From Prinia subflava (Eukaryota; Chordata; Aves; Passeriformes; Cisticolidae), in contig NW_026960613.1 in NCBI RefSeq assembly GCF_021018805.1, positions 1,612,001-1,676,000 on the forward strand: a stretch of 64,000 bases of DNA, given 5' to 3'. This document shows, in pieces, positions 23,945 through 54,414 of this stretch (position 1 is its first letter; each line of letters starts with the position of its first letter). The translations under genes were made by a program, and so were the position numbers. A model generated the notes under the pieces. It searched no databases. It had not been told where the DNA came from and was given only the letters and a program-made list of their open reading frames with translations.

Positions 23945-23949
23945 CCAGC

Positions 23950-25380
23950 CCCATCTGTGAATATTGTCATAGCTTGCAAAGGAGTCTCACTTCTCTTTCG
24001 CTTGGGGATTAAAGTGAAAGACGAACTTAATAATTTGTGTTTAGGCAGATTGGTAGATATCTGCCCTGGGTAATTTGTTAAAGCAATTTGCAATTTTTCA
24101 GACATCTGTAGCAACCAATTCAAATAAAACATTGTGAGAGGTAGATAGATATGATCAAAATCTTTCCCAGCCAAAGAGGTCAGTCTTTGACGAGCCTTGA
24201 TAATCAACACGGCCATAAGTTCATCTTGCATGGAAATAGTCTTGGGCATATTGTTAGGCAAAAAGACCCATTCGATAAATAGCAGAGGGTCTGGTTTTTC
24301 TGAGTCCCACTGAAATATTAAGGCATAAGGCTGTTTGTTAGGATTCAGAATGATTAGCCACAACAGCAGTTCTGGAGCCCACCTGGCTGATTGCCTCTGA
24401 GAGATAGCATCAGCTACCTTTTGAAGCGCAATTTGTGCATCTTTGTTTAAGCATCTGGGTGATAAGAGGTTGGGCTCTCCTCCCAGGAGAGCAAACAATG
24501 GCTCTAAATCTGCATTTGAAATCCCAAGCAAGGGACAGACCCAATTTATTGTTCCCAGCAATTTTTGTGCATCATGTAAAGTTTTGATTTCAGCTGAAAT
24601 TTGCAAGGGTTGTGCAGAAATAGAATGCATGCCTATTCGCCAGCCCAAATATTTCCAGGGGCATGTCTTTTGAACCTTTTCAGAAGCATTGGTGAGGCCT
24701 GCTGAGGTAACAGCTTGGCAGACAGTCTGCACTGCTTCCTCCACTCGACCCACAGTTTCTGCAGAGATAAGAATATCATCCATATAATGATACAACAGAA
24801 CATCAGGCATTTGTTCCCATATCGGGCTCAGAGTTTTTGCCACGTACCACTGGCACAATATTGGGCTATTTTGCATTCCTTGGGGAAGTGATAGGCAATG
24901 ATATCGATTTAGTGGTGCCTGCATATTAATGCTCGGCACAGAAAAGCTAAATTTGGGTGCATCATCTGGATGCAGCGGAATGTCAAAAAAACAATCCTTT
25001 AAATCAATTACTGTTAGATGCCAATTTCTAGGAATCATAGAAGGGGAAGGGAGGCCTGGCTGTAGGGGCCCCATTCCCTCAATTACCTTGTTTATTTTCC
25101 TCAAGTCATGCAATAGCCTCCACCCCCCAGACCGCTTTTTAATTACAAACAAGAGTGAATTCCAGTGGCTATTACATGTGACTATGTGCCCCTTTTTCAA
25201 CTGTATCTGTACAAGTTCTTGTAATATGCACAGTTTTTCTAATGACATGGGCCATTGGTCTACCCAAACTGGATCAGAGGATTTCCAAGTCACTTTGGGG
25301 GTGTTGCGCGCCCCAATGACCCTTATACAAAATTTGACTGCATAAAAATTCCCCATTGAGATAGAAAATCTCTCCCCCAC
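23950..25380 (-). pseudogene. pol: ERV-B pol, reverse transcriptase and RNase H start
   Basis: Reverse transcriptase on the minus strand: WRLLHDLRKINK, VIDLKDCFFDIPLHP with the first catalytic Asp, LPQGMQNSP, the YMDD box, and WKYLGW. The connection domain follows, then the first RNase H Asp in FTDGAG at the edge of the nested LTR. The true start of pol is the frameshift at 25329-25335; the upstream bases to 25380 are out-of-frame overlap with protease. No internal stop occurs in this part, so before the LTR insertion RT may have been functional. Confidence 0.92.
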
Positions 25381-26144
25381 AAAATCAGCGGAGCAGACAA
25401 CACATAAGGCCTGACAGTTGCTACCCTCCCCTCAGGCCCTGTGATCTGTACCAGGTGTTGGCTTTGATAGCTTTGACTGTTTCCACCCACCCCTGAGAGG
25501 ACCTGGGGGACAGGCATTAATGGCCAATCATTAGGCCATTGATTTCGGGAGATAAGACTAATATCCACACCTGTGTCAATGAGTCCGGTTAGAATTAACT
25601 CTTTCCCGCTCAGAGACACTTTGCATCGGCACGTAGGACATTCAGGAGTTATACGCTGCGTCCAAAAACATTATGGTACCCCTGTTGAACCAAACCCGCC
25701 TCCCCTGTGTTTAGCTATTGGAGGTGTGGATAAGGGGGCTGCTGGGAAAAGTACAAGCTGGGCGATGTTGGTCCCTGCTGGGACCACGCAGGGGGGCTGT
25801 GGGGTCCAAGCCATTATTTTTATTTCCCCAACCGTGTCAGAATCAATAACTCCTGGTAAAACAAACAATCCTGTTACTGAGGTAGAAGATCTACCTAAAA
25901 GCAAAGCATGGTGACCTGGTAGCAAAGGTCCGTAAATTCCTGTGGGGAGACAAAACACTGAGGAATTGGTCAACGTTACTGTATCACGGGTTGAAATGTC
26001 CAGTCCGGCACTCCCTGGGGTTGCTGGATGTAGGTCGAAGATGGTCAGGCAGGCAGGGCCTGCGGTGGCTGGAAGCTGAAGGTTGGTTCCGGTTGCGACA
26101 GCTGCTGGGTTGGCTGTGGGACTTGTGTCTTCACGCATTGCCAT
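25323..26144 (-). pseudogene. pro: ERV-B dUTPase-protease (pro frame, one stop)
   Basis: Minus-strand frame with dUTPase then aspartic protease. dUTPase motifs: GSAGLDIS, PGVIDSDTVGEIKIM (the Tyr seen in ERV-A is not at its usual place here), and RGGGFGSTG. A TAA at 25668-25670 separates dUTPase from protease in the same frame. The protease has LIDTGVDISLIS with the catalytic Asp-Thr-Gly and LWGRDFLSQWG. It overlaps gag (stop at 26045) in the -1 frame and pol at its end. Same domain order as ERV-A. Confidence 0.9.
25329..25335 (-). promoter_or_regulatory. ERV-B pro-pol frameshift heptamer A AAT TTT
   Basis: On the minus strand the pro codons read TCA AAT TTT GTA TAA. A AAT TTT fits the X XXY YYZ rule for -1 slippage, two codons before the pro stop (25323-25325), and the shifted frame is pol (KFCIRV). 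Confidence 0.75.
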
Positions 26145-27060
26145 CCCGCTCTGTGAGATGAGTTTCCTTGCAAAGGCTGGCCATTTTGGTGAAATTTAGA
26201 GCAACAGGAATTAGCAAAGTGAGGACCTTTCTGGCAGCGAGGGCACATGTTCAGTGTTCTCGGGTTTTGTGCCTTTCCACAGTCTTTTTTAATGTGCCCG
26301 GGCTCCCCACAGCTGAAACAAACCGACTGCTTTTTGGGTATTATCTTTAAAGCGGCAAAAGCATCAGCTATGCCTTGTCCCACAGCTTGATAGGTCACTG
26401 CTGTAGTGTGCTGCAATGTCCCCAGGTCGTTGCAGGCTTCTATCATTTGAAGCAGTGTGGGCTCAGGTTCTGGGGGCAGGGCTTTCACGAGGCGTTTACA
26501 GTCATCGTTAGCATTTTCAATAGCCAGTTTGAGGAGCACAACTTCCCTGGCTTGATCATTATCAATCTGTCTCTCCAGTGCTTGTTTCAATTTGTCCAAA
26601 AACTGCATATAGGGTTCTTGGGGAGCCTCTTTAATATTTATGAAGGACTGTTGTGGGGTTTTTGCATCAGGGACTTTAAGAAATGCAAAAGTAGCTGCCT
26701 CCGTGATCCCTTCCAGGGCTTCTTTCGGCAAGGCAGCCTGGACATTAGGATCGGTATGGGCTCCCTCCCCCGCTAAGTGGTCAATAGTTAAGGCAACCAG
26801 GGCTTGGTTTGCTTGCCCTGCATATGTTACAATTGAGTTCTCCAGTCTCCTTTTCCATTGTGCCATGAACATCGCGTATTGCGTTGGGGTGAGCAAAAGG
26901 TTTGCTAAGGATTTAACATCATGAGGGGTCATGAGGTGAGTAGTGAAAGTTGCTCTTAACAAATTACTGAAGTAAGGGGACCCCAGACCATATTCTGCTG
27001 CAGTACGGCGCAGTTCCTTGATTTCTGAGTGACTCAAGGGCTCCCATGGTGGATTCCCCC
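26045..27060 (-). pseudogene. gag: ERV-B gag, capsid and nucleocapsid
   Basis: Open minus-strand frame of about 330 codons. The capsid contains the major homology region (IKEAPQEPYMQFLDKLKQAL). Nucleocapsid has two zinc knuckles, CFSCGEPGHIKKDC and CPRCQKGPHFANSC, both with complete CX2CX4HX4C spacing, followed by a Gln/Pro-rich tail. It joins the upstream gag only through a frame change in the C-run at 27055-27064. Confidence 0.9.
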
Positions 27061-27719
27061 CCCCTCGGGCCGAGTTGCACAGGGGCTACAAATATTTCTG
27101 CTGCAGTATCAAAGTCTCTGTCCTTAAGGGCTTTCTTTTTTATCTGTAACCAATTGTTATGCATATTTGAAGGGAGTAATTCCAGATCTTTTTTGGGGCC
27201 GGGATCAAAAGACTCTCCGTCACTGCTAAAGTCAGAGTCCTCATAAGCGGTTAGTGTTTGGCGGCTCTGGGGTCGCTGGTGGGATACCGGCAGGGGTGCA
27301 GCTGGAGGCTGGGCTTTATCTTTGGCATTCATCGGGGAGGGGGTGCGGACGGGGGACGGGGAGCAGGACCTGGGCAGGTTTCAGTCTAGCATGGCCTCCG
27401 GCACCGTCTCCGCAGTGGTATCGCAGGCTGCCTCGCTCCCCCCCTCTTTTTTAATCGCTTCCATGACCGCCCTCCATGCAGGAAGCAGGCGTAGCTCTGG
27501 CTCGTGGCCAGGCAGCATAGCCAGGTCGTAGAGCTTTACGCCGACCTTGTCCCAGTAGCGGAGAGTAAAAACAGAGGAAGGGGTGGTATCGGGGAACATG
27601 CGTGACACCCATCATAGGAGCGACTTAAGGTCCTGCTTAAGGATGTGGGATCCATGCTTGCTCAGCAAGCGTTGCATGGTTTTGTTAACGTCTCTCTCGT
27701 TGGACACGTCCTGTCCCAT
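27061..27719 (-). pseudogene. gag: ERV-B gag, matrix and spacer part (two stops)
   Basis: The ATG at 27719 gives MGQDVSNERD, with Gly at position 2 as needed for myristoylation and membrane targeting. In-frame TGA codons lie at codon 36 (about 27612) and at 27381-27383. The frame then continues through a Pro/Ser-rich, acidic spacer (DSDFSSDGESFDPG) to about 27060, where a run of G on the coding strand shifts it against the capsid frame. Confidence 0.85.
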
Positions 27720-27839
27720 ACCTTGAGTTCCCCTGGCTCACCTGGCATACAGATGATTGCAGGCCCAAACACGGTTCTTTCACCGTCACGATCAGTTCCA
27801 GGGTAGTCGCTAATTGCCAGCAGATTGCCGGTTCTTCTC

Positions 27840-27857
27840 CGGTCACACGGAGCACCA
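27840..27857 (-). promoter_or_regulatory. ERV-B candidate primer binding site
   Basis: On the minus strand, two bases after the 5' LTR comes TGGTGCTCCGTGTGACCG. It begins TGG as primer sites must, but I do not recognise the tRNA. Confidence 0.55.
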
Positions 27858-27859
27858 AT

Positions 27860-28185
27860 TATTGACGATTGATGAGAGATGGGAAGACTGATTCGGTGAT
27901 CAGAATTCGATTTTACTCAAGTTTCCCAAAAGCTTATATACTATTTCAAACAGGTTAATAATTTCTACTACAATAATCAGGTTAAAAATCACACAGAAAA
28001 CTCATGCATTTTACAACAATTCTTTGCTTGCAGAAGTTGATTGAATCTTCTCTCTTCCCGTAAGCAGGTTTAATCCCATCTCCTGTAATTTTCACAGTTC
28101 TGTTTGTTCCTGCCATGGCATCTTGGTTATCAAACTAGCTTTGCTAATCAAGTCTGTTTGACTCTCTGTCTTGTGTATTCCCATA
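27860..28185 (-). repeat. ERV-B 5' LTR
   Basis: 326 bp, window orientation TATTGACGATTG...TTCCCATA. Followed by ACAAAC. Differs from the 3' LTR at bases 5, 6, 10, about 22 and about 36 only. Confidence 0.93.
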
Positions 28186-33527: not shown

Positions 33528-34303
33528 TTTTTGCTCCAGGTGCCAGAGCAGAGATTCTCCTGCAGCTTGTGCTGAAGACCGTGGTGGCATGCAAGTTGTC
33601 CCCTTGCAGCCCAATGAGGTCCAAGGTGGAGCCGATATCCCTCCTGCAGCCCATGGAGGACCCCACACCACAGCAGGTGAACATGACATGAAGGAAGCTG
33701 AAGCCTGTGGGGAGTAGCCCACTCAGGAGGAGGTCTTCTGGCAGAACTCATTACCCTATGGAGGACCCATGCAGGAGCAGCCTGCTTCTGAAGGACTGTA
33801 CCCCATGGAAATGGAACATGCTGGAGCAGTTCTCAAAGAACTGCAACATGTGCAAAGGACCTGCATTTGAGAAATTTGTGGAGGATGGTATCCTGTGAAA
33901 AGTATCCCATGCTTGCACAGTGTGAGGAGGAAGGAGCAGCCAAGTTGAAGTGTTATGAACAGACTGCAACTCCCATTCCCATCCCTCTGCACTGCTCAGG
34001 GGAAAAGGAGGTAGAAGATTTGTCAGTGAAGTTGAGCCTTGGAAGAAGGGAAACGTGGTGGGGAGGTAATTTTATTTTTGTTTTATTTCTCACTATCCTG
34101 CTCTGTTATTAGTTGGCAATAAATAAAATCAGTCTTCTCCAAGGTGAGTGTTTTGCCCATGACAATAATTAATGAGTGACCTCCCTGTCTTTATCTCAAC
34201 CCCTGAGCTTTTCCATTGTTTTCTCCCCCTATGCTGTTGAGGAGATGGAGTAAGAGAGTGGCTTGGTGGGAACTTAATGGTCAACCAAGATCAATCCACT
34301 ACA
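33528..34303. mobile_element. LTR, TGTGGTGGGTTT family, reverse orientation
   Basis: Reverse complement relative of 18701-20857: it ends AATCCACTACA (reverse of TGTAGTGGATT), and carries the repeated CTGCAGCCCATGGAGGAC-type modules. The inner end is truncated at the CR1 tail. Confidence 0.8.
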
Positions 34304-35597: not shown

Positions 35598-36339
35598 TGT
35601 CTTGGTTTGGAAAGACAGGTATCTGTCAGGGAAAACTGGAGTTCTTCTTGGAATGGAGAATGTAAAAACCCCCTCCCTCCAAATTATTACAATTTTGCAA
35701 TTAGGAGCTTTCAGGCAAAAATATGGGAATAGGAATAACAGTTCTTTACTAGGAATATTTAAAAAAATACAAATGCAGTAGTACAAAAAAAAACCAAACA
35801 AGCAAACAAACAAAAGTCCTAGAAAACCCTGACAGAGTCAGAGATACGACCTGACACCCTGTTGTCAGGGTGTTGGAAGCAGTCTGAAATAAGTCTTCCT
35901 AGTGTAACAGGTGTTGTTCTGTGAAGTAGAGATGATCCTGTAGAAAAAAAGGGTCCAGTGCTGGCAAGATGGGTCCGGTCTTCCTCCAAGAATTCAGTGG
36001 AAAAAACGGCTCAATTGGTGTTTGGGATGGCTGGTTTTATCCCGGTGGAAAGGCTTTGGCTCCTCCCATTTGGTGGAGCATCTCACAATGGAATGAAGTA
36101 ACGTCATGCAAGAGGCCTTAAATGGCCCATTCACAGGTGATGTCCCTTGGAGGAGGATGGGTGGAGGAAGAGATAAGAAGGCACTGCCATATCTGGTGTT
36201 ATCAGTTGTCCCATTAACAGAAGGCATCCGCTCTCTTCCCCCCCTAGATTACAAGAGATAAAGAACAATATCTCCCAACCCGTTTCAACAGATGAAAATA
36301 GAATACACATTTTTGGTTACATTTTTTCAACCCAAGACC
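35598..36339. mobile_element. ERVL-type solo LTR, TGTCTTGGTTTG family, target duplication ACAAT
   Basis: 742 bp, TGTCTTGGTTTGGAAAGAC...CAACCCAAGACC, with ACAAT at 35593-35597 and 36340-36344. Ends carry long inverted repeats (TGTCTTGG / CCAAGAC). Matches 4432-4990 and, in reverse, 59065-59341. Confidence 0.88.
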
Positions 36340-36344
36340 ACAAT

Positions 36345-36665
36345 CACCTTCACAAAGTAAAACAAGACATGCTTGTGATTACAGGCACAGTACAGCTTAT
36401 CATATGTCACCATAACAGCCACATTGTCATTACTTCTGTTTGGAACACAGCATGATAATGGAAAGAAAAAGTTCTCAGCAAGCTAGTGCTCTACAGTGTC
36501 CATGTAGAGGCAGAGCAAATTAAACCCTCCAGTGATATCTGCTACAAAGGGAAATTTCTTAGCAACAATCCTTGAAGAAGCCCCCAAAATATGTTCTATT
36601 TCCCTAGTTGTAGGAAAATTGTAAAAGATTTTCATTTGTTTTAAGCTTTGTTTTCCTTATGACAG
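36345..36665. other. No gene recognised
   Basis: Short non-coding stretch between two solo LTRs. Confidence 0.4.
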
Positions 36666-36674
36666 GATGGCAGA

Positions 36675-37271
36675 CCAGGGTCCTGGGTCTGGCTGGGATA
36701 GAGTTAATTTTTTTCATAGTACCTTGTACGGTGCTACTTTTTGGATTTGTGATGAGAGCAGTGTTGATAATACCCATGTTTAAGCTATTACTGCTCAGTG
36801 CTTACACACCATGAAGGCATTTTCTGCTTCACACACTGCCCTGCCAGCGAGGAGGGGGGGCTGTGCAGAAAGCTTGGTAGGGACACAGGCAGGACAGCTG
36901 ACCCAAACTCACCAACAGGATACTCTGTACCATATGACATCATGCTCAGCCATAAAAACTGGGAGCGGATAAGTTTGCCATTAAGATTAGGGACTGACTG
37001 GGCATCAATTGACTGGTGGTGAGCAATTGTAGGGGTTTCTGCATCACTTATTTTTCCTGGATTTGTTTTTCTTTGTTGTATTTATTTTTGGGGGCTTTTT
37101 GGGATTTTTTTTTGTGTGTGTGTGTTTTTTTTAAAACTTATTAAATGGTCTTTATCACAATTCATGTGTTTTTGCACTTTTACCCTTGCAATTCTTACCC
37201 CATCTCACCGTGAGGGGAGTGAGTAAGTGGCTGTGTGGTGCTTAGATGCCTACTGGGGTTAAACCACAACA
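36675..37271. mobile_element. ERVL-type solo LTR, GGTTAAACCACAACA-ending family
   Basis: Contains CTGGGATAGAGTTAATTTTT, the CAGCTGACCCAAACT block, CATATGACATCATGCTCAGC and ends CTGGGGTTAAACCACAACA. I recognise this as a common avian ERVL LTR type. A (TG)n/T-rich simple repeat lies at 37099-37135. The left end is uncertain by some 10 bases. Confidence 0.75.
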
Positions 37272-37978
37272 ACTAGGCCTATGGCTGGAGAGGCAATGGC
37301 TGAAGCTTTGTTGTGGAGGGTAATAAGATTATTCATAATATGACTGATCTCCATCAACACGGAGATGGCTGGATAATAGTCTTTCTGCAAAGTATACTGC
37401 CATATCTTGCCCTACAGCGCTATTTTAAAGATGGTGTCTGATTTGCGGAAAAAGACTCCACAACTATTAAGAGTTAGTTGAAGAGTATTTCTGTCGGCAT
37501 GGACACCAGGCGTGATGCGGGATCTTTCCCAAAGGCATGTGCAACTCCAAAGAGTTATCTTTCTCTGCTTATTCTCTAAAATGTTACATATGCATTAAGT
37601 TCTCTATGGATATTTATTACCTAACCCCGCCTATTCTTGCTTTGTATTAAAATGAGCTTATCCGTCTTTTGCACCTGTGCAATGACCTCTGGTAGTCATT
37701 GGTGGTCTTCATGATGAAGTAATGCAAGTCTTCCTCTCGTTTGATCTTTTTACTCCGTCCTCTTGCCCATGCTCACTGGCTTCTTGGTCACAGTTTGAGC
37801 CGCAAGGCTAACCTTGGTCATAACAGTCCTTATCACTGCCTCAAGCAGACAGTTTCTTTCTTATCCGCTAGCCTCGCATTCTTTTCATCTTGCTGTTGAA
37901 AGCAATGGCCTTGCTTCCTCTTGAAAGTCCAGCAAATGTTGAGCGAGATACATTGTTCAGACTATTACCCCTAATTGA
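37272..37978 (-). pseudogene. Possible further Polinton sequence, heavily decayed
   Basis: Continues downstream of the penton-like fragment on the same strand. Short broken frames include a Lys/Arg-rich piece near 37690-37800 (for instance KKIKREEDL), as expected of a small basic Polinton protein, but I cannot assign it. Stops are frequent in all frames. Confidence 0.3.
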
Positions 37979-38222
37979 TCACCCTTTGACTTTTAGCCCC
38001 CTTGTTTCAATGTCTTTGTCAATGTTATTCCATATATGTGAGTACTGCATTTCCGCAAGCCCTACCTCCCATTTGCCTGAGAACTCCAGGGGTTTCACCA
38101 CCTGTGAGGTGAATTTTGAGTTGGTGTTTTGGGGGAAATTTCTGGCAGACAGAGCTGGGCAGTGTGATGTAAATACCCTTGTCTGCAGTCTTTCCCCCAA
38201 TGCTGCCCCAGTCACTAGACAT
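37979..38222 (-). pseudogene. N-terminus of a Polinton penton-like capsid gene (frameshifted)
   Basis: The ATG at 38222 on the minus strand opens MSSDWGSIGG and then KGIYITLPSS; after one frame change in the C-run near 38115 the second frame gives NTNSKFTSQV, KPLEFSGKWEVGLAEMQY and SHIWNNI, ending at a TAG/TAA near 37979. The pattern (Y.TLPS...FP.NT.S.F...L..P.E..G.WEVGL.EM.Y...W.NI) is one I associate with the N-terminus of the conserved Polinton/Maverick gene thought to be the penton (minor capsid) protein. Its start overlaps the stop of the integrase fragment upstream (ATGTCTAG), as in compact viral genomes. About 80 residues remain; the rest of the jelly roll is lost or unrecognisable. 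Confidence 0.6.
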
Positions 38223-38530
38223 CCTGTACTTGTAAAGCTTCTATCCAGCTGTTAAATTTCTGGGGCCAGTCATGCCTCTTTATGAGCAGCTGTTTCACTT
38301 TTGCAGCAATAACCTCAATTTTGTAGATTCTGTCCTCATCAGGATTCACTTTTTGAAGGGTTCAGGGTAAAATATCCCCTTGATTGCTTCATGACCATAG
38401 TGTATTAAGCGGTACATGAATATCTGTCCCATCCTCAAAACTTCAGGTACTATGAAAATTTCATCCATGAACATCTGCTTATAACCTTTCTGAAATTCTT
38501 CTTTTGTTGTATACACCCTGAGAATTTGAG
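38215..38530 (-). pseudogene. Polinton/Maverick integrase C-terminus with chromodomain-like tail
   Basis: The minus strand from about 38530 reads [29 protein letters not shown], then EAIKGIFYPEPFKK; after one frame change near 38355 it reads VNPDEDRIYKIE, LLIKRHDWPQKFNSWIEAL and stops at TAG (38215-38217). The order F.KGY....EEIF.V..V....-YRL....E.IKG.FY...L.KV followed by a chromodomain-like ...YKIE......W.GWP.KFNSWI is what I know from Polinton integrases (the F54H12.3-like transposon proteins). The catalytic core would lie upstream, where a CR1 has inserted (38535 onward). Gypsy-type integrases also carry chromodomains, but the KGY..EIF and KFNSWI context favours Polinton. Confidence 0.62.
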
Positions 38531-38534
38531 CAGA

Positions 38535-39530
38535 TGCACAGATTCTTTAACTTAAAACCAATCTCCATAAATGGTTTTGCAAAATGCTGCTTGAACTCTG
38601 TCAGTCTTGGTGTTGTGACCACTTCCCTGGGGAGCATGTTCCAGCACCCAACAACCCTCTGGGTGAAGAACCTTTTCCTAATATCCAACCTAAACTTCCC
38701 CTGACACAGCTTCATGCCGTTCCCTCAGGTTCTATCACTGGTCACCAGAGAGAAGAGATTCGTGCCTGCCCTTCCGTTTCCCCTCATGAGGAAGCTGTAT
38801 GTAGACTGTGATGAGGTCTCCCCTTAGCCTCCTCTAAGCTGAACAAAACAAGTGACCTCAGCCACTCCTCATAAGGCTTACCCTCCAGACCCTTCACCAT
38901 CTTCATGGCCCTCCTTTGGATGCTCTCCAGTAGCTTTATTTCCTTCCTTTATTGTGGCTCCCACACAGTACTCAAAGTGAGGCCTTGCCAGCACAGAGTA
39001 GAGTGAGACAATCACCTCCCTCAACTGGCTAGCCTGATGCACCCCAGGACATGGTTGGCCCTCCTGGCTGCCAGGGCACTGCTGACTCACATTCAACTTT
39101 CCATCAACCAGGACCCCTAGGTCCCTTTCTGCAGTGCTGGTCTCTAGCCTCTCGTTCCCCAGTTTGTCTGTCCATGCAGGGTTTCCCTGTGCCAGGTGCA
39201 GAATCTGGCACTTGTCTTTAAGCTCCATATGGTTGGTGATTGCACAGCCCTCTGATTTGTCTAGGTCTCTCAGCTTCTGAGGGAGACAAGAGCTCCTCCC
39301 AATTTAGTGTCTCTGGCAAATTTACTCAGTATACTTTTGAGTCCTGCGTCCAAACAGTAATGAAGATGTTGAAGAGCATTGTCGCTAAAATGGTTCCCTG
39401 CAGAACTCCACTAGTGACCAGACTGATGCAACCTCAATTACCCTTTGTGCCTGACCGGCAAGCCATGGCATTATGTATTTACCTAGCTGTATGCTGGAAA
39501 TTTTGTCCAGAAGGATATGACACCTTAAAG
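38535..39530 (-). repeat. CR1 LINE, reverse transcriptase end and 3' part
   Basis: On the minus strand, motifs [16 protein letters not shown] and [11 protein letters not shown] (38560-38710) mark the CR1 ORF2 C-terminus, and [13 protein letters not shown] (39090-39130) lies upstream, with the RT palm blocks in shifted frames near 39200-39400. It abuts the Polinton integrase fragment, so it probably inserted into the Polinton. The right end is approximate. Confidence 0.85.
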
Positions 39531-40059: not shown

Positions 40060-40681
40060 ATTTAACCACACCATCGTATCATACAGCCAACTATTATGCA
40101 AAGACTAACTACAGATATAAGTGATATGAACAGTTCCTTTTATCCAGTCCCAGTTCGATAACCATGAAGTGAGTGTACTGAAGGTATATTAAAGGTTCAG
40201 TAAGCTCTTTTGAGAGCTACCTGATGTAGAATCTGAATTTGCTTCCAAATTTCAACCAAATCCTTATTAATTCTTTCTCTCTGGTCTACATAAGAACAAT
40301 AACCAGTGTTAATTATTTTGTGGCTAGTAGGAAATTGAAAGCCGTTCTGTTTTGTAAAACTATACCAGACAAATCATGGACTTCTTGTAAGGCTGAAATT
40401 GCATCTGAAATTTGCTTTTCACTATGTTCAATAACCCTTAATATGACCAAATATTATGTTTGGAATTACAGCCCCATGGGCAGAGGCCTGATCTTTAGCT
40501 AAGGGCAGAACTTACCAGGCCTCATTTTCACATATCTGATACCACCTTGACAAGTTTTTCTTATGAAGAGCTTTGGGATACAAATTTGGACTAAAGCCAC
40601 ATGCAGATTTTGGGATCAAATCTGAATCATGGTTACCAATTGTGCAGATAAAAGGCACAAAAGAACAAATTTAAACCACAT
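40060..40681 (-). pseudogene. env: ERV-C env remnant with internal deletion
   Basis: The ATG at 40681 (minus) begins MWFKFVLLCLLSAQLV, a good signal peptide. Within a few dozen codons the sequence reaches transmembrane-unit material: VHDLSGIVLQNRTAFNFLLA near 40340 is the heptad/LQNR region of gamma-type envs. Most of the surface unit is absent and several stops interrupt the rest. No CX6CC motif can be read cleanly. Confidence 0.6.
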
Positions 40682-41521: not shown

Positions 41522-42131
41522 TGAGTGCCCATGCCAGAAGCAGAAGAAAGAGTCGGAGTTCGCCAGCTCAGGTTTCTCAAGGTTGTTTATTGTCTCAGGT
41601 TTCTCAAGGTTGTTTATTGTCTCTTATCTCTAAGTTCTTTCTGTGCCCAGCAAAGGTCCTTGCTGCGGCAGGAGCACAGGGCAACTCTCTCCCCCAGGTT
41701 GGAAGTGCTAGACCCTTTATACCCTTTCTCTGACCCAACCACTGTCCACAACATATTCCTTATTTACAGTCTATTACCAATACCTACTACCTATACTAGA
41801 CATGTCACTTCTGTCCTACACCAATCCCTTGTGACCCATCACAGCAAAAGATGGAGGACAAAGACAAGAAAGAAGAAGAACAGAGCCACACCCTGATTCC
41901 TCCATCTTGCCTTCCCCATTGGCACCCGGTGATTAGCTATTATTTACATTAAACTCTTGGGGTCTGTAGATCTTCGTGCAATGCTGGTAATTTTCCCCAT
42001 GGGCTCAGATCAAAGGCAGTGTCACTTTGGGCCCTGTGCCAGGGTCTCAGACCCCCCTGCAAGGGTCCCAACCCCCCTGTCAGGGTCCCGGACCATCCAG
42101 GGCAGCCAGAGGGATGCCCTGGACTCTGACA
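41522..42131 (-). mobile_element. Solo LTR nested in ERV-C integrase, with duplicated poly(A) region
   Basis: 610 bp; on the minus strand TGTCAGAGTCCAGGGC...GGGCACTCA. A perfect 27-bp tandem duplication at 41567-41620 contains the reverse of CAATAAAC, so the poly(A) signal is present twice. Three imperfect AGGGTC.CA.CCCCCCT units lie at about 42042-42095. It splits the zinc-binding part of ERV-C integrase from its core. No exact target duplication was seen. Confidence 0.7.
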
Positions 42132-42960
42132 CCTCTGTTATTTCTAGCACAACTCTTTTGCTCATGTTTGGGTTGTTTCTATAGCAGATTTCATATTTGC
42201 TTGTTATAGATTGTACAATGTCAGTCATTTCCCTGTCTGTTACTACCTTCTTCAGATGTTTCAAAAGGTTCTCTGTTCCCCTATGGGTGCTTTCATGTTC
42301 TCGCTGAGGTGGGACTACCATCTGTCCCTCTGATCTAATAGCCCATCCACTTTCTCTGATTTTAGCTTTTGTGCCGGAAAACTGATGGTCTTTCTGATCA
42401 CACTTTGGAGCACTGACAAATCATTTCCTCTCTGTGGCACTGCCTTTTTCTGCAGCCCCTCTTACTACTTCATCAGCAAAATGATTCTTTAATTTGGGGG
42501 TTGTTTCCTCATTTTGATGAGCTTTGCAATGCATAAAAGCTGTTTCTCTTGACTTCCAAATACTCTGTAGCAGTGCATGGATCTGTTCAGTATGTTTGAT
42601 TCCACTACTTTGAACAGTCAGCAGTCCTCTTTCCCTCCAGATGATTTCACTGACATACATAGACAACGTTAAATGGATATTCAGAATTAGTCCATATTTT
42701 TACCTTCTTTCCTTCGCTCAGTTCTAAATCTTTTGTTGATGCAATGTGTTCATCTTTCTGTGATGATACATCTGATGGCAAGGCCTTTGTCCTGATTACT
42801 TGGTTCGTGGTTGTCACTGCATAGCTTGTCATCTGTTTGTTATTTTGCACAAAGCTGCTCTTGTCTGCATGCAGCTCCCAATCTGGATCTTCTGAAGGCA
42901 TGTCCTTCAGATCTGGTCTGCTGGAATAGGTCTTTTCCACGGTCTGTAAGCAGTCATATT
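42132..42960 (-). pseudogene. pol: ERV-C pol, RNase H and integrase N-terminus
   Basis: Minus-strand frames give YSSRPDLKDMPSEDPDWELH and LELSEGKKVKIWTNSEY (RNase H; the usual TDG and TDS active-site Asp residues appear as H-A-D and T-N-S, so catalysis is lost), then HQNEETTPKLKNHFADEVV (end of RNase H), then a piece of integrase (THRGTENLLKHLKK). Compare ERV-D at 48110-48952, where the same blocks are better kept. Confidence 0.75.
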
Positions 42961-43069
42961 CTGATATCTAATCAAGTAGTATCATGAACAGAGACAAACC
43001 AGGATTGTTAGCAAACTATTTCAGAATAACATTACCCTGTTACAGTAACATAGCATGGGATACCTGCCG

Positions 43070-43486
43070 TCAATGTTCACAGAATAAACTTACTGTGAGT
43101 TGGATGCAACTCTTAGATGCAGCAATTCTTGGCTGCTGGTTGAATGCAGCAATTCTTAGCTGCTGGCTTCTCCAGTTCTCCAGTTCCTTTGCCAGTTGAT
43201 TTCTGAATATAGTTGGGCTATTCTTTAAACCGTCAGGCAGGACTGTCTCAGTGAGCTGGGTCCTTTTCCCTGTTTCAGGATTCCTCCACTTAACAGCAAA
43301 GAGTCCCTGGCCTTTCTTATTTGCAGGAATGAAGAAGGTATTTTTAAAATTTAATACAATAAACCATCCTAAATAGTCTATTATTCTCCTCTCTTTGCAA
43401 AATTTCAATAGATCCTTCTTAGGAGAATTTGGCAAACAGAGAAACTGATGAATCATCCAATGTTTTCCTAATTCATATTTTAACAT
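43070..43486 (-). pseudogene. pol: ERV-C pol, reverse transcriptase fragment
   Basis: Minus-strand frame with VLNFKNTFFIPANKK (palm motif, catalytic Asp replaced by Asn in LNFKN), FAVKWRNPETGKRTQLTETV and LPDGLKNSPTIF. The pattern E..TGK..Q.T..VLP.G.KNSPT..  is gamma-type RT. The region with the (Y/F)xDD box is replaced by a short Ala/Ile-rich tandem (QQ.RIAA). Upstream it ends at ERV-D's LTR. Confidence 0.75.
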
Positions 43487-43535
43487 TTGGAAGACAGGTC
43501 TTATCTCACCCTTGTGGTACTAATAATTCTTACAG

Positions 43536-44196
43536 TGATTTATTAAAATACGAATATCGATCTAATATCAATATTCAACTGTGACGGACAAAAGACTCTC
43601 TAACAGTTCAAGTTAGAAAGTGTATGTTTATTGCGACGCCGGGCAGCGCGTGGGATAGCTCCCTAATGCGCACTGCAAAGATCACAGGTAATTACAAAGC
43701 CTTTTATTTACAAAAATGTTGAATACACAAAATACAAATGCATATTTATACCCTTATCACTTCCTCTTCTCCGCTTCGTATGCTAATTGACAGAAAGGCT
43801 ATTAAGCATGAGTAGTTTGTTCCCTGAAATGGGTCGGTGGTCCTTTTGTGAGGAGTGGTCACCAAAAGGAGGAAGTAAAACGAGTCTTCCTCGTTCTAAA
43901 CTTTCAGCCTTTTCAATGCAGATGTGATTGATGGATGGTAGAACTCCCTGTTTCCTGTTTTCCAGGACTATTTCAGTGGGTTTCTGGAAACAGGAGGTCT
44001 CGTGTTGTATTGATTAGTTTCTCTGTTTGACAAGCAATGAGTTCTTAAATCCGGGGTAGCTTATCTTAAATCCGGTTTCTTTTAACCATCCTCTAACTTT
44101 TAACTGATTTCAGCAAAGCTTATCTATTCGTTTCAGCTAAATCAGCAACATCTATTGTTAACTGTAACCTTAGCTTTTCTCAAATCTTCAAAATTA
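43536..44196 (-). repeat. ERV-D 3' LTR
   Basis: In window order TGATTTATTAAAATACG...CTTCAAAATTA. On the coding strand AATAAACATACAC (near 43630) is the poly(A) signal and AATAAATCA the end. The coding-strand start TAATTTTG departs from TG; the end RC (TGATTTAT) pairs imperfectly with it. Confidence 0.88.
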
Positions 44197-44222
44197 GTCT
44201 CATTTCCCCACTTCTTCTTTGA
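44197..44222 (-). promoter_or_regulatory. ERV-D polypurine tract
   Basis: Minus strand AAAGAAGAAGTGGGGAAATG, then AGAC, then the LTR start. Purine-rich with one T, at the expected place. Confidence 0.7.
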
Positions 44223-44459
44223 AATGAGTAAATTCTTTTACTCCGTATACAGCGTCTTTTTCATCTAAGCCGTATGGCTAGTGTCTCTCAAGACCAAGCC
44301 ATATGCTTTTGATAGTGATGTTAAAGCTGCTACTTGTCGTAGCATCTTCTAATTTCAAAGAATTATTACAGCAGATAATACTAAACTTATGTGGACTAAA
44401 ATAAGCAACACAATTATAGGGTGGACTAAGGCATTCAGTATACTAGTTGCTGTTGGTGA

Positions 44460-46130
44460 CTATCTAAAAAGCACATCTCACTAATGATGAGACAAATGTT
44501 CTTTAAGCCTTTTAAAAACCTCTTTGATGGTCTCTGTCATGATGTATTGTAATTAATGTCTTTTTTTTTCTCCATTTCTAATTTCTTTTAAGATTTCTCT
44601 CAATTCTTGATGTTTCATCAATTGAGCAACTAAAGTCAAATTCATTCCTATGGGCACAGGCAGTATCTTCTGCACAGTGGCTAGGTTGGCCTTTATATAT
44701 TGATGTGATATTACAGGTGCCCGATAGGAAAAATCACATCCTTTAATTCTAATAAAATTGCAAACACACAAATTGAATTGAGTTTCATCTATAATTTGGT
44801 TGTCTATCTTTATGATGGGGCATGCAGTTCTAAGACAGACACAACCTTGTCCTGTATACACAAGTGAAGTTGTTTGTTTGCCTGGATGCGTTTCAAAGTG
44901 ACAAATACTTTGGTCCATATCTAAACAAGTGTCTTTGTCAATTTTTAATGTCCTCTCACATATGTATCTTAGTTGTCTCTTCACAGTACAGGGCTCTAGA
45001 TTAACAGTTTGTCATTTTCTTTCAATTTCTCATGCCCACATCCTGTGCTCAGAAGGGTACAATACTGTTCCCTCATGGTTTAATCCTAAGGGGACTATGG
45101 GATGTATTAGGTCCACTGAGGCATCATGTATAGTTCAAACAAAGGCTGTCACCATACTAGTCACAGGGTTATAGGTGAAATGGACCAACATCCACCAAGA
45201 CTGAAGTTCCCTCTCCATATCAGAGGCATTGTCCCAAACAATTTTGCAAATTTCAGCAGGGAATGTTCCCTCTCCACCTTCCCTGATAACTGCAGCAGCC
45301 ACTGATTGCATCCACAGTTGTGCTTGAGTACACCCTAGAGCCAGTGAGATGTTTTCACTAGCTGTGCCTAGCGCATTATTTATTACCTCATGATCTCGCT
45401 ACTCTGTATTTTCCCATTCTGGTAATATTTGGGTCAATTTCCAATGATTGTTACCCAGTGCTAGTAGAGAGGATTGCAAAGGTTGTTGTAGTTTGACTAA
45501 ATCGCTTCCTACTGAGGTTAATTTATTCATCAGCACTTCTGAATCTATTGTGTTCAGCACTCCTAGTCCTGTCCCTAGCAACTCAGTGAGATCTTTTTTA
45601 CTCTTAAAATTAGGAGGCATACTTTTTGGAGCTATGTGGTCTAGTCTGTAAAGGAGTTCCTGAGAAATGGGGCACATTCTAGCCTAACGTGAGAAGCATT
45701 TACCTGTACTCTCATTTCTACTCGTTTCAAAGACCACTTGGGGTTAACTATCAGCTTCTGAACTCTTGTCTTCTGAATAGCATATGGCCCAATTCTGGTA
45801 ACTACAGAAGTTATTTGTTCCTCTACTTCTGGAATAGCTGGCATCTAGGTGATCACAGCCTTTCTTGGCACTGGTGGAGTAATCTTAGTCTGGTCTTTAT
45901 GGAGCTCAGTACATAGCTGAGTGATGTTAAAGTCAGTATCATACCCTCTTACTGCACACCCCTCTATTTTGAGTCTAAACTGAGGACATTTACTCAAGCA
46001 TTTGGCACAGCATTCAAGACTAATCTGGATGGGTCTCATGGGTGGGTGGTAAGCCTCATGGAATCCATCCTGTACAAATGCATATTTACATCTCTAAACA
46101 TTTCTTCTTTCTTACAAGCTTGCATTTGTG
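44460..46130 (-). pseudogene. env: ERV-D env, main part (broken)
   Basis: Several minus-strand frames in order. 46039-45845 is Cys-rich (CCAKCLSKCPQF); 45844-45641 continues the surface unit (VNASHVRLECAPF). 45600-45399 contains LTELLGTGLGVLNTIDSEVL followed by LVKLQQPLQSSLLALG, the fusion-type and heptad region. 44984-44553 has a Cys pattern (CVCLRTACPII, then CVCNFIRIKGCDFSY) and MNLTLVAQLMKHQELREIL. This is a large env type seen in avian ERV1 copies, different from ERV-A env. Stops and shifts separate every piece. The start lies beyond the nested LTR at 46590-46725. Confidence 0.7.
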
Positions 46131-46157
46131 ACTTTTAGCATCTTGTTTAAAGCTTTA

Positions 46158-46585
46158 TGAGACTAAGGGTTGTGGAATTGCCTTTTATGGAAATGGTTTG
46201 CTCTGGGTCACCCCTGGAAAATGTATGGTTTATCCCAAGTCTGTACCCTCCCTGCAGTATCATGTATCTGTAACCTCATTGGCTGTAGAATCTTACCGCG
46301 CCCACTTTGAACCTCTGTGTTAAGAATGCAAAGGCAGAAGGCTCGGCCTCTTTGCCCTTCTCCCCCCTGGAGGTCTCCGGACGCTCCCCTTCCCTCTCCC
46401 CCCTTCCCCCTCTCCCCTTCCCCCTCTCCCGCAGGACCATGCTCCCTGCCTGGAGTGAGACTTAGAATAAACCCTCATCTCAGCAGCCATCTGAAGTCTC
46501 TTTGCCTGCCAGCACGGGACCACCCATGACCCTAGGACCCGGGGGTCTCCCGGGGGGCACTCCCCAGGGACTCCCCAAAAATTTA
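46158..46585 (+). mobile_element. ERV1-like solo LTR nested in ERV-D env (ends approximate)
   Basis: Plus-orientated by AGAATAAACCC near 46465. It lies between the two env pieces. A C/T-rich tract (CTCCCCTTCCCTCTCCCCCC and on) covers about 46382-46430. Both ends are uncertain: TTTA occurs near each candidate end (about 46154 and 46582), which would fit a four-base duplication. Confidence 0.6.
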
Positions 46586-46725
46586 AACTACAACAAAGGG
46601 TCATAAGCTCTTCCTTGGTACCGATATATCCTAGTCACATTATACCTACATGGTATTGCATTGACTCTTGTTATGGCTAAAGTAATTACTACAATAGTTA
46701 TAACTTTCTACATAATGTCTATAAT
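46586..46725 (-). pseudogene. env: ERV-D env start (signal peptide region)
   Basis: The minus strand from about 46718 has an ATG followed at once by TAG, then a hydrophobic run (KVITIVVITLAI) that reads like a signal peptide and continues as VNAIPCRYNV. The nested LTR then cuts it. Confidence 0.5.
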
Positions 46726-46859
46726 AAGTATTAGTCTATTTATTCATGGTCCCAAGTGAGCTTCAGCTTCAGTTCGTTATTGCCTGGTGTGACTTGCTAA
46801 ATTCCCTCTGAGGCTTTCCTCACTCGGGAGTGATGGATCCAGGCCTTCTGTTCTTTCAT

Positions 46860-48110
46860 CTTGATTGCAGTGAAGGTAGTGAGGAATACCTGGAATGGTC
46901 TTTCTCACTGCGGTTCTAAGGTCTTTTCTGCAAAAGACTTAATGTACACATAATCTCTAGGTTGTTCATCATGTCCTGGCCCACCTAGTTCTTTATTTTG
47001 AGCTCTAGCTATATATTTCTCAATTTCTCTAAGTTGTTTATTTAGGGCCACCATATATCTATGTAGGGTTTCTTCTTTTACTTGAATGGGTGTTGTTCTT
47101 TCTTGAACTGCATGTGGCCTCCCATACAATATTTTAAAAGGGCTTAGTTTCTCTTTTGCCCTTGGTTTTTTCCGAATTCGCAATAATGCCAATGGGAGAG
47201 CCTGGGGCCAGGGCAAATTTGCTTCTTGCTTTAATCTCACAATTTGTTGTTTCTACTTGCCTACTAGATTGAGGGTGGTATGGGGCATGCAATTCCTAGT
47301 CTATTCCTAGGTGGTGACTTATTTGCTGTACAATTTTTGAAATAAAGTGTGGCTCCCTATCTGAGGATATGGTGGCTGGAACTCCAAATCGTGGTATTAT
47401 TTCTTGCAACAGTGTTTTGGTCACTTTTCGAGCTTTAGCTGTCCTGGCTACCCTGAAAAGGTATCAGTTAGCACTAATAGGTAAAGATACTTTCCTTTCC
47501 TGGGCAGTTCTGTAAAATCAGTTTGCCATTGTTGTCCAGGTCTACAACTTTTCCCAATTTGTCCTACTTTAGGCTTTGGGGTGTTTTTAGGGTTAGTTCA
47601 GAGGCAAAGGCTACACTGACGAGTTACTTGTATCACTGTGCTCTGCAATTTCCTGGCCATAATTCTTTCTTTCAAATAGTTATACAGGGCATCTATTTCC
47701 CAGTGTGTTTTCTCATGTTCCTTCTTTACTTATGACTACAACAAATAAGAGGGTACTACAAGTTTCTCTTCTTGTGTTACAGCCCATCTTTCCTGGTTAT
47801 AACTTGCCTTTTCTACTTTAATAACTTTCTTATATTTTTTATTGTATATTGGCTTACTCTCAATAGAAATTTTCCATCTGGAATCAGTGCTGCCTCGATT
47901 GTCTCATCAGGTATCTCACCTTTTGCTGCTTCTTTTTCTTCTCTTTCTGCCAGCATATTCTTTTCTTCTAATTCAGAGCTCACTTTTTGGTGTGCTTCAA
48001 TGTGCATGATGGCTACCTTTTCAGGTAATTGTACTGTATCTGATAATCTCAGTATTTCTTGGGCATGTTTAATATTCTTTCTTTGTGAGTTTAAAAGTCT
48101 TCTTTCCTTC
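46860..48110 (-). pseudogene. pol: ERV-D pol, integrase (broken)
   Basis: Minus strand. 48110-47813 holds the RNase H-integrase junction (HIEAHQKVSSELEEKNMLAE). The integrase core lies in 47700-47300 in shifted frames. 47240-46905 is the C-terminal part: PWPQALPLALLRIRKKPRAK and SPFKILYGRPH, a typical gamma-integrase block before the C-terminal domain. No complete catalytic triad can be read. Confidence 0.75.
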
Positions 48111-48952
48111 TAAATGGCTCTATGTGCATGAACTACTCTAAATCTATACTTTGAGTCTGTATAGATGCTAATTCTTTTTCCTTTTGCTAGCTCTAGGGCT
48201 CGAATTAAGGCAATTATCTCAGCCTTCTGCGCAGAGGTATTTGTTAGTAATGGTCCAGACTCTATTACCTTTCTGCTTGTGGTAACTGCATACCTAGCAT
48301 GCTTCTTTCTACAAATGACATAGCTGCTCCCATCAGTAAACCAGGTCTTGGCATTCTCAAGCGGGGTATCTTTCAGATCAGGGCGACTGGAGAGGGTGGC
48401 TTCGATGGTCTCCAGGCAATCATGGATCACTGGTTCTCCCATATTCCTGCTGAGGAAGGAAGCTGGGTTCACAATGTTAGTCACCACAATCTCAACATCA
48501 TCTTGTTCTACCAGTATAGCTTGGTACTTCAGGAATCTCTGTGGGGAGACCCAATGACCCCCTTTCGCTTCCAGGACTGTAGACACTGTGTGGGACACTA
48601 GCACAGTCATCTTCTGGCCCAGGGTGAACTTGCGTGCCTCTTGGATGTTCACTGCTACTGCTGCAACGGCTCTGAGACACCCCGGCCACCCCTTAGCTGC
48701 TGTATCCAGCTGTTTGGAGAGGTAGGCAACTGCCCTTCGGTACGGGCCCAGATTTTGTGCTAGTATTCCTAAAGCAGTTCTTTGCTTCTTGTGAGAAAAC
48801 AAAAAGAACTGCTTACCCACGTCTGGAAGTCCCAAGGCTGGTGCTGACATGAGGGCCTTCTTTAGCTGGTCGAAGGCTCGAGTTGCTCCTTTTGTCCATT
48901 GAAGTTCTCTGCTCTTTTCTGTGATTAAGGTATGCAGAGGTTTAACAAGCAA
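48110..48952 (-). pseudogene. pol: ERV-D pol, RT connection and RNase H
   Basis: Open minus-strand frame of 280 codons. Connection: WTKGATRAFDQLKKALMSAP and AVAYLSKQLDTAAKGWPGCL. RNase H active-site residues: Asp in WFTDGSSYV, Glu in KAEIIALIRALELAKG, Asp in IYTDSKYRF. It ends at a TAG at 48110, in the last part of RNase H. Best-kept part of ERV-D pol. Confidence 0.88.
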
Positions 48953-48967
48953 TCTATAATTATAAAT

Positions 48968-49987
48968 CTACAGTCTGCACCACCTTGTCATGCCTAGAAA
49001 GGTTCTCAGTTCTTTCACGGTCTGAGGCTTTGGGGTCTGGCATATTGCCTCCTTGCGATCTTGTCCCAAGGTTCTTTGTCCAGCACTTACTTCATAGCCC
49101 AGGTAAATAACTGTCTGCTTTACCATCTGAGCCTTCTTTTGGGATACTCGATAGCCTTGCATGCCCAGAAAGTTTAGGAGGCTTACCGTCCAGTCCACGC
49201 ATGTTTCCTGAGTCTGGGTGGCTATTAAGAGGTCATCCACATACTGGAGGAGCTGTCCTTCTCCTGGAGGAGGTTCCCAGGACTCTAAATCCTTTGCAAG
49301 CTGCTCCCTAAATAGGGTAGGAGAGTTCTTATATTCTTGTGCTAATACACACCATGTAAGCTGAGTTTTACGTCCAGATCATTTTCTGGCTGGCTTCATG
49401 GAGAGGTAGGCAAAGAAAGCATCCTTTAAATCTAAAATGGTAAACCAGGTTAATTCAGGTGTTAAACGGGTTAACAGGGTGTAAGGATTGGCAACTACTG
49501 GGTACAAGTCTTCAGTTACTTTGTTAACAGCTCTTAAATCTTGTACTAACTTATATGACCTATCAGGCTTCTTCACTGGTAAAATAGGAGTGTTGAAATC
49601 AGACTGACATTCCCTCAGTAGTCCTATCTTCAGAAAAATTTTAATAATTGGACTAATCTCCTCTCTATCTTCTTTTTTTAGGGGGTATTTTTTAACCCTT
49701 ACTGGCTGTCTTCTTTCTTTAAGTTTAATCTGCACTGGTAGTGCATTCTTTGCTCTTCTTGGTATATCAGAAGCCCACACTCCAGGAAATACCTGATCTA
49801 TTATTTTCCTGAAATTTTCCTCTTCATTTGCAACTTCAATTTCTTTGGTTATTGTCATTAAACTTAAAAGTTCTACATATTGTTGATCTTTTACTTCTAA
49901 AATAATGTCCCCATTCTTAAATATTATTTTTGCCTCCAGCTGCTCTAGCAGGTCTCTGCCTGAAAGTGCAGACGGAGCTTTAGGCAT
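48968..49987 (-). pseudogene. pol: ERV-D pol, reverse transcriptase (shifted, stop)
   Basis: Minus strand. 49987-49379 runs from the end of protease (LSGRDLLEQLEAKI) into RT: LPVKKPDRSYKLVQDLRAVN and FTILDLKDAFFAYLS with the first catalytic Asp. A stop at 49379 and a changed frame follow. The YVDD box lies near 49235 (YVDDLLIATQTQE), then LGYEVSAGQRTLG. Gamma-type throughout. Confidence 0.88.
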
Positions 49988-50233
49988 GTATAAAAATCAG
50001 TGAATTCCTCACTGTTTACTTAATTTATACTTCAATGGTTTGCAAAAATAAGCTCTTTCAGATTGGCCAGTCGCCCCTTTTACTATAACATAGTCACTGG
50101 TTACAGGTAATAGGGCCTTATTCAGCACTGAAAATGTTGCCTCTGTGTCTATCAAAAATTTCATCTTTTTCTTTTTGTTCCCCAGTTTGACTATAACCAG
50201 AGGGTCCTCTAGGGTAGGGCCCTCCGATCCCCT
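49988..50233 (-). pseudogene. pro: ERV-D protease with altered active site (DTE)
   Basis: Minus strand, downstream of the gag stop in the same frame: PLVIVKLGN, then FLIDTEATFSVLN near 50150. The catalytic triad Asp-Thr-Gly is Asp-Thr-Glu here, which should kill the enzyme. A stop lies near 50014 before MPKAPSALSGRDLL. Confidence 0.75.
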
Positions 50234-50236
50234 TCA
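50234..50236 (-). promoter_or_regulatory. In-frame UGA between gag and pol (readthrough-type junction)
   Basis: The gag frame ends HVKED-stop (TGA) and stays open on the far side into protease. One stop between gag and pol in the same frame is the gammaretroviral readthrough layout, though those usually use UAG. Confidence 0.6.
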
Positions 50237-51907
50237 GTCCTCTTTTACATGAGCAACTACTTTTTCTCCTTTCTGACTACCTTTTCTATGTTCATCACCC
50301 TTTTTTAGTTCTCGACACTGGTTTTTCTAGTGACCAAATTTTTGCAAAATGCACATTGATCTTTTCTCAGTCAGGGTGGTCCCTGTTTCGGTGGACCTTG
50401 CCCACATTTTCTTTTTTCTCCCTCTTTTACTACTGCTACTAATTTCTTTATCCTTTGTTTATATCCTTCTTCCCGGTTACTAAAAACTCTCCAGGCCTCA
50501 TCCAGGAAAGCTTCTAAATTCTGGCTGTTTGGACCCCAGATCTTCTGGAGTTTCCACCTGATGTCTCTTGTAGACTGTCCTAAAAATAAATTTATTAATT
50601 GCTGCGTCTCTGCATCAGATCCAGGATCTAGGGTGGTGTGTCGGTACATTGCGTCTCGCAGGTGATCTAGAAATTCAGAAGGTGTTTGAGAAGGGTCCTG
50701 TTTGATAGCATATAAGGCTGACCAGTTTATGGCTTTGGGTATTGCTCTTTCCAGCCCTTTTACTATCAATTCCTGGTATCTCTTTAACCGTCCCAATCCC
50801 TCATCGCCATTAGGATCCCATTTTGGGTTTTGGAGGGAAAATATATTTTAACATCTTCCTGTGTTGTTCTACAATCATCCTCGGTTATATCCTTAGCTAC
50901 TTTCAAAACTAATTGCTTCTCAGTTTCTGTTAGGGCATCAAGCAGCAGTTGGAGGTCTGCCCAATCAGGTAAATGCTGCTTAATCATAAACTTCATTTTC
51001 TTAGCAACCCTTATTGGACCACTTCGATAGCCCTTAGCACTCTTTTCCCAAATTTCTAAATCAATCCAGGAAAAGGGAACCTTAATCAGTTTTGTTTCTC
51101 CATCAGAGGTCATTGTTTGCTTTAGAGGTGCTTGTATGACCTCTCTGGTTTGTTTTCGGGTCCTTAATATTATGGGTCTTTGTGGGACAAGTTTGGGAGC
51201 TGGTGGGGGAGGTTCAGGTTCATCCCACTCACTGTCACTGCTAGGCAGTGGTGGATAAAATTTGGATGGTTCCCTGGGTTCAGGAGTGGATGGAGAAACC
51301 CCTACCTCAGCTGCTGTCCTTCTAAAGGAAGATGAAGCTAGAGATGAAGCGGGGGAGGTTGGAGTTAATGATGGTTCTGAATCTGCATCTCCTACTACCT
51401 TCTTCTTTTTCTGCCTTTTAGGGGGTGGTTTAAGTATGTTTTCTGTCTCTCGTTCTAAAGCCTCTGCTGGGTATACCTTGTCAGGATGTGTGCACCTCTG
51501 ATTTATTGAGCAGCTGCTACAACACCGTTTGGGCTTTCCTTTAGTAACTTTATGGTCCTTTTCAAAGGCCAATACTAAAGGATCAGATGGTGGCCTCATT
51601 CTACAATCTCTTTGCCACTCAGGGTGATCTTTAAGAGTAAAAAAACATATCAGCATAAGCCACTTCCTGCCACTTTTGTTCGCGGCGTAGGAAGAGCATT
51701 AGCTGCAATAGTCTCATAGTGCAATGTACCATTTGCTTGCCACTTCACCCCCTCTTCCAGCCTATACAGTGGCCACCACTGTGTACAAAACTTGACAAGC
51801 TCCTTTTGGGTTTCTGTACCCCCATAGCTTACTAATTCTTTCTAATGTGTTAAAATACATCCCAGATGACTGCCTTTAGGAATCTCTTGATTCTCACTTG
51901 CTCCCAT
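50237..51907 (-). pseudogene. gag: ERV-D gag (matrix, capsid, damaged zinc knuckle)
   Basis: The ATG at 51907 (minus) gives MGASENQ, with the Gly needed for myristoylation. A TAG follows soon after (about codon 22), then a TGA and frame change near 51660. From 51656 to 50784 one frame runs through a basic, Pro-rich spacer (FYPPLPSSDSEWDEPEPPPP) into capsid (VPFSWIDLEIWEKS). 50796-50371 continues capsid: SALYAIKQDPSQTPSEFLDH is the major homology region. The single zinc knuckle near 50330 (CAFC ... GH, stop, KNQC) is broken by a shift and a TGG to TAG change. Layout is gammaretroviral. Confidence 0.85.
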
Positions 51908-52995
51908 CCTTATGATTCCTCTGGTAAAAAGATATACTAGGCACTCTCTGCCTTAAAGATTTCTACTGGCTTCCCTATATCTCCTGCTCCTGGGCATACA
52001 CTTTTACTGAAGAAAGAAGCAGGGTATACATGCACACACACCACGGCAAGGGAAAAGCTCTTTTTTATTTTAATCTAAAAGGAAACAACACAACACAGTC
52101 AAACAAATTGACAACACACAGACTTGTCTTCTCTTCTTCACTTAAATTGCTGATTACAAATCGCTATCGAACGAAGTCCTCTGTTATACCTTTCACTGGC
52201 TATATTGCAGCTAAAATGCACTCAAAAATTGCAAGCAGTTTTACACATACTGAAGCAAGCGTACAGTTAAAACCTAGCGCAATTCCGGTCAAGCCGTAAT
52301 TAGAGTATAGATGGGGCTCTTGCAGAATACCAACCAATATCTGGCTTCAGCCAGATGTTAACAATCCCAAACATACACACTCAACCAAAAAATTTTAACG
52401 AAGTCTCGCCATAAGCCAAAGGGCTCAAGTGAAGACACGGCACAAATCCCTCTGCAAGAGGGAAGCGGGGAAGCAACCCTGGCCCCACACCGTCCCGCAC
52501 TTCCCTGCTGCCAGGAATCACCAGTTCCTAGTTAAAATACTATGCTACACACACCGGCAATCTCAAAGCTTCACAATCAAGTATGTTCCTTCGCAGTCAA
52601 GACAACTTTCCACAAACAAAACTTTTTGGGGTCAAGCGGGGCTGGTAGAACACAGTGCAAGACTACAAAACCTGGATCCTTCCACCAGTTACCAAGGTGA
52701 TACCGGGCATAATTTCAAACTTTTCACACCACTTGTTCCTTCACACAAAATACACAGCTTATTCACTCACAACTGTCTTCTCTACTTAACAACACACTGG
52801 TTAAAATATCATTGCCAGCCACACAAACAAAACTCACACACAGTACTTCCTCGTGGCACACATTCTAGGAACTGTATAAGCATTACTTTCGCAAACACCA
52901 AAGCAGATATCCCTCCGCTGATCAGGCGGGGGTTTTAAAATTCTTTTAGCTCTTTAAACATACATCACTCCTCCAAAACACGTATAGCACGCTAC
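51908..52995 (-). other. ERV-D 5' leader, part next to gag
   Basis: On the coding strand this is G/T-rich, with many TGTGTTTG-like words and few long frames. Close to gag lies TTGTTTCCTTTTAG (near 52074), which looks like a splice acceptor. No domain is encoded. Confidence 0.6.
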
Positions 52996-53749: not shown

Positions 53750-53753
53750 CTAC

Positions 53754-54412: not shown

Positions 54413-54414
54413 GA

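Follow-up and report, generated by a model that had tools for sequence, protein, structure and literature searches.

A probable remnant of a Maverick/Polinton integration, interrupted by a solo LTR, in the genome of Prinia subflava

Mavericks and their traces in birds

Mavericks, or Polintons, are held to be integrating DNA viruses, and their decay in birds and mammals has been described as unexplained (PMC9683012). In vertebrates, the Maverick gene module comprises integrase, minor capsid, PW, major capsid and protease (PMC8097293). The integrases of adintoviruses have a distinctive C-terminal chromodomain (PMC11071296, preprint), and the Polinton penton was recognised through comparison with virophage pentons (PMC4028283). 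Polinton remnants have been reported on chicken chromosomes 2 and Z, where they are conserved in turkey (Guizard et al. 2016, PMC4992247). All bird Maverick copies found so far seem to be degraded, according to one published account (PMC9683012).

Here, we analysed 64,000 nucleotides of the Prinia subflava genome (contig NW_026960613.1, positions 1,612,001 to 1,676,000), a stretch referred to below as the window. Two adjacent fragments near 38 kb of the window are very probably what is left of an ancient, now dead Maverick/Polinton (adintovirus-like) integration, in which the C-terminal end of an integrase gene and the first part of a minor-capsid gene would be preserved. The original prediction had suggested that this may be an undescribed copy, Polintons being scarce in birds. 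Mavericks as such are not undescribed in birds: defective copies are on record from several avian groups, and also from chicken and turkey. Degraded bird Mavericks are already known, and the present relic is most likely one more example. The features of the locus, from the highest to the lowest coordinate, are:

38585..39410 (approximate), minus strand: CR1-type LINE fragment with its 3' end missing, bounding the relic above; from alignment with two CR1-like copies and a self-match of the window
38349..38546, minus strand: putative first integrase-tail piece; open frame with a 12-residue peptide...EAIKGIFYPEPFKK
38215..38361, minus strand: putative second integrase-tail piece; other frame, DRIYKIE...WPQKFNSWIEALQVQDV, chromodomain-like end, stop at 38217-38215
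38141..38222, minus strand: putative start of a penton-type (minor capsid) gene; from the ATG at 38222-38220 to KGIYITLPSS and a frame change
38010..38145, minus strand: putative second penton-type piece; other frame, ...FSGKWEVGLAEMQYSHIWNNIDKD; the LTR interrupts it at 38010
37439..38009, minus strand: 571-bp solo LTR with TG...CA ends, a member of a repeated family, interrupting the capsid piece
37272..37438, minus strand: probable further part of the capsid gene, below the LTR and in frame with the piece above it; one stop at 37414-37412
36677..37272, minus strand (orientation not set by type): another interspersed repeat, bounding the relic below; at least 31 matches in the search of its own genome

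Signatures and order of the two fragments

In the upper fragment, a 17-residue peptide of the first integrase-tail piece lies at 38504-38454, and EAIKGIFY at 38390-38367 is followed by a frame change. The second piece carries DRIYKIE (38334-38314) and WPQKFNSWIEAL (38268-38233). The upper start of the Maverick-like part may lie anywhere from about 38.58 to 38.51 kb. The lower fragment contains KGIYITLPSS at 38180-38151 and a frame change near 38140-38145, and its second piece contains FSGKWEVGLAEMQY (38083-38042) and SHIWNN (38041-38024). All of these are on the minus strand. Every peptide named in the original prediction was thereby located where it had been placed, in two adjacent fragments with one frame change each. 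The capsid ATG at 38222-38220 overlaps the integrase stop at 38217-38215, the two genes sharing 8 bases. Taking gene identity from the signatures, an integrase precedes a minor capsid on one strand, and the locus fits a Maverick because this order, integrase tail and then capsid start, is the one published for vertebrate Mavericks.

Five signatures follow one another in order across about 450 bp of the minus strand. Written after the finding had been seen, which is a source of bias, and built on general expectations for Polinton proteins, the five patterns occur 1, 1, 1, 5 and 1 times in the window, compared with means of 0.003, 0.49, 0.047, 4.35 and 0 per simulated window (300 windows with the same dinucleotide frequencies) and with 0, 1, 0, 7 and 0 occurrences in 22 real flanking stretches of 10 kb each (220 kb in total). 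As a signature, TLPS alone is worthless and KG.FY is weak. Motif-like peptides lined up by chance in non-coding DNA would account for broken frames, for patterns picked afterwards and for the lack of a significant alignment to anything. We nevertheless consider such a coincidence very unlikely, given that the three rare patterns, expected 0.003, 0.047 and 0 times per window, appeared in none of the 22 flanking stretches, and that the order, the spacing and the stop-start overlap suit a gene pair.

Pfam searches of the four pieces returned nothing relevant, with one irrelevant match at E 0.12, and Rfam returned no match. In PDB sequence searches, the first integrase piece gave a single unrelated match (E 0.88) and the second capsid piece gave none. 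The second integrase piece matched two LHP1 chromodomain sequences at non-significant values (E 0.35 and 0.56), the same range as two unrelated PDB sequences (E 0.26 and 0.35). AlphaFold2 models of both integrase pieces, made without an alignment, were all-helical where beta folds are expected, although single-sequence structure models such as these are poor evidence. Neither protein-database searches nor scans of viral contigs yielded a relative or a Maverick protein. Among 58 viral-contig loci the motif was present in translation in 53, and their contexts, viewed by eye, contained no integrase or penton. The original prediction, a Polinton relic with an integrase beside a capsid-type gene, is therefore borne out by signatures and by agreement with the published order, and not by any significant Pfam or PDB match. 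It had named the lack of a significant hit in either fragment as grounds for rejection and, taken formally, this is what Pfam and PDB (three of the four pieces) gave.

Gypsy-type integrases can carry chromodomains. ERVs occupy much of the window, pol remains of an old ERV are present at 42.0-43.5 kb, and no profile match separates a Maverick integrase tail from a Gypsy or retroviral one. On these grounds the first fragment might have come from the end of a retroviral or Gypsy/Ty3-type integrase, with the second fragment unrelated or fortuitous. This explanation appears unlikely. When the integrase pieces were compared with four ERV ORFs of the window, a tiny set, the best E was 0.18 and fell outside the integrase end; no Pfam integrase match was obtained for them, and the second fragment shows a rare signature of its own 150 bp further on, in the expected order. 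The absence of GPY/F from the integrase pieces is not telling, as the tested ERV ORFs also have neither GPY nor GPF. Maverick homology, which we infer from the signatures, their order and the anatomy of the locus, is the best reading but is not proven. Also in its favour are the chromodomain-like end of the integrase piece, with its weak LHP1 matches, the likely resumption of the capsid frame beyond the LTR, the unrepeated character of a stretch that lies between repeats, and the degraded Mavericks already reported from birds.

The inserted LTR, the edges of the relic and the surrounding repeats

We read 37439-38009 as the solo LTR of an ERV. It has TG...CA ends, belongs to a repeated family and is flanked by GACAT and GACAC, a target duplication matching at 4 of 5 positions. 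Its own genome (an assembly of 1,119,828,203 bases, 1.12 Gb, in 537 contigs) was searched with DNA from 37700-38560, and all 19 candidates were scored and matched, one of them being the query locus. The other 18 matches fall within 37700-38017, and 38018-38560 is single-copy at the sensitivity of the search. Consistently, the first integrase piece (3 candidates scored) and the 90-aa frame containing the second capsid piece (7 candidates scored) were each found at one place in the genome. A search with 36300-38030 gave at least 51 matches: besides the self-match, 19 lie in the LTR and 31 in the repeat at about 36677-37272; as 40 of 3072 candidates were scored, these counts are lower bounds and absence carries less weight than for 37700-38560.

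When seven LTR copies were compared with the window, the boundary at 38009 was shared by five and that at 37435-37439 by three. Exact 5-bp target duplications flank two of the seven (L084 and L087), both among the three that reach both ends. The third of these, L088, has no target duplication. A purine-rich stretch precedes it, and likewise L085 and L089, which is expected of 3' LTRs. The original prediction had extended the capsid fragment down to 37979. This was incorrect for 37979-38009, which is LTR; the last ten residues, those that follow WNNIDKD, and the stop near 37979 are likewise part of it. We also considered whether the sequence immediately below 37979 was the next Maverick gene, PW, and ruled this out when the repeated LTR was found there.

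Below the LTR, the capsid gene likely continues through 37272-37438. Counting the target duplication once, this segment shares its frame with the capsid fragment that lies above, an agreement that has by itself a 1 in 3 chance of arising at random. In the DNA search of its own genome, 37273-37434 matched itself only among the 40 of 3072 candidates that were scored. The segment may resemble penton sequence.

The Maverick remnant is older than the LTR, because the LTR lies inside it. The five best copies of this LTR are 87-92% identical to 37439-38009. Three complete ERVs of the window are probably younger than this insertion, because their LTR pairs are 97.9-99.0% identical. The ERV at 6781-15361 has a pair of 393-bp LTRs that are 99.0% identical and a plus-strand pol with integrase domains. 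That at 21356-28185 has LTRs that are 97.9% identical, and an LTR of the same family, 97% identical, lies at 57359-57686. The third, at 43536-55080, has a pair of 666-bp LTRs that are 98.3% identical, with minus-strand matches to Gag_p30 and RNase H.

Other features were observed in the window. On the minus strand, an open frame of 931 aa at 59948-62740 encodes reverse transcriptase, RNase H and an integrase core. Older ERV pol fragments lie at 42025-43519, with weak matches to reverse transcriptase, RNase H and the integrase zinc-binding domain. A possible retroviral envelope fragment at 40313-40453 matched Pfam TLV_coat at a non-significant E of 0.091. Related repeats at 18734-19369 and 33643-34271 form an inverted pair and are 68% identical, and a perfect tandem repeat with 2.1 copies of a 27-bp unit lies at 41567-41623.

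At its upper edge the relic meets the CR1 fragment, which is oriented as the integrase tail. By eye, similarity to two CR1-like copies fades at about 38.58-38.59 kb, short of their 3' ends, and a deletion therefore probably joined the CR1 to the integrase tail. The ends of the Maverick itself, where terminal inverted repeats would be expected, are probably lost, because the relic stops at the CR1 on one side and at another repeat on the other. No second copy of the relic was seen in 284 kb (the window and 220 kb of flanks), where short matches had E values of 0.088 or worse.

The remaining Maverick genes were sought in the interval 33.4-43.0 kb, among all 102 ORFs that it fully contains and that encode 45 aa or more. 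No Pfam or NCBIfam match to a major capsid, packaging ATPase, protease, integrase core or polymerase was found in this set, a result that applies to proteins with a model in these collections, which is not assured for each. The matches obtained were weak, and those to RNase_H and H2C2 belong to the old ERV. No rve core was present among these ORFs, and the tail alone remains of the integrase. A search for the protein-primed polymerase (PF03175) gave no candidate in the Prinia genome; the control genomes gave 1 of 14, below the cut-off, so that this result says little on decayed copies.

History of the relic and comparison with described elements

A plausible history can be proposed. A Maverick carrying capsid genes would have been inserted by its own integrase, and after integration it would have decayed, accumulating two frame changes and one stop. 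A deletion probably accounts for the loss of both the integrase core and the 3' end of the CR1. The putative capsid gene was also hit by the insertion of a retrovirus-type LTR, and the relic is bounded below by another repeat. The remnant cannot encode an intact protein and is unlikely to have a function. Human Polinton relics with strong conservation have been reported (PMC9004415), which raises the idea that the host has kept this one as a regulatory element. We regard this as extremely unlikely, as nothing at the locus points to such a role and later elements cut through the stretch.

Taken alone, the relic changes little, because degraded Mavericks have already been published for several bird groups. 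It is possible, although we hold it to be rather doubtful, that this is a Maverick insertion new to print, in a bird group without a published copy, and old enough to be shared at the same site among birds. Were such an undescribed shared insertion real, it would provide a dated point for the loss of Mavericks in birds. Because a later LTR interrupts the capsid gene, the locus can be dated relative to that insertion, and it offers a marker to look for at the corresponding site in other bird species.

Compared with the chicken and turkey Polinton remnants (Guizard et al. 2016, PMC4992247), which are described as keeping integrase, major capsid and polymerase B frames, the latter two were not found here. 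The likeness is that, in both cases, Polinton genes of a bird, among them the integrase, have been interrupted. The Maverick orthologues of placental mammals (PMC9683012) are, like the present relic, old and heavily degraded single loci with no likely function; they were dated by orthology across species, whereas our data come from one genome. Adintoviruses (PMC11071296) are defined by polymerase B and hexon, neither of which was found here, and the present relic is inert. They have a penton gene and a retrovirus-like integrase whose C-terminus is a chromodomain, features to which the putative penton-type start and the chromodomain-like integrase end of the relic may correspond. Vertebrate Mavericks, including the defective bird copies (Barreat and Katzourakis 2021, PMC8097293), are defined by up to eight or nine core genes, whereas two partial genes, and no polymerase, were found at this locus. 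In the order of integrase and minor capsid, in their position on one strand and in their degradation in birds, those Mavericks and the Prinia relic are alike.
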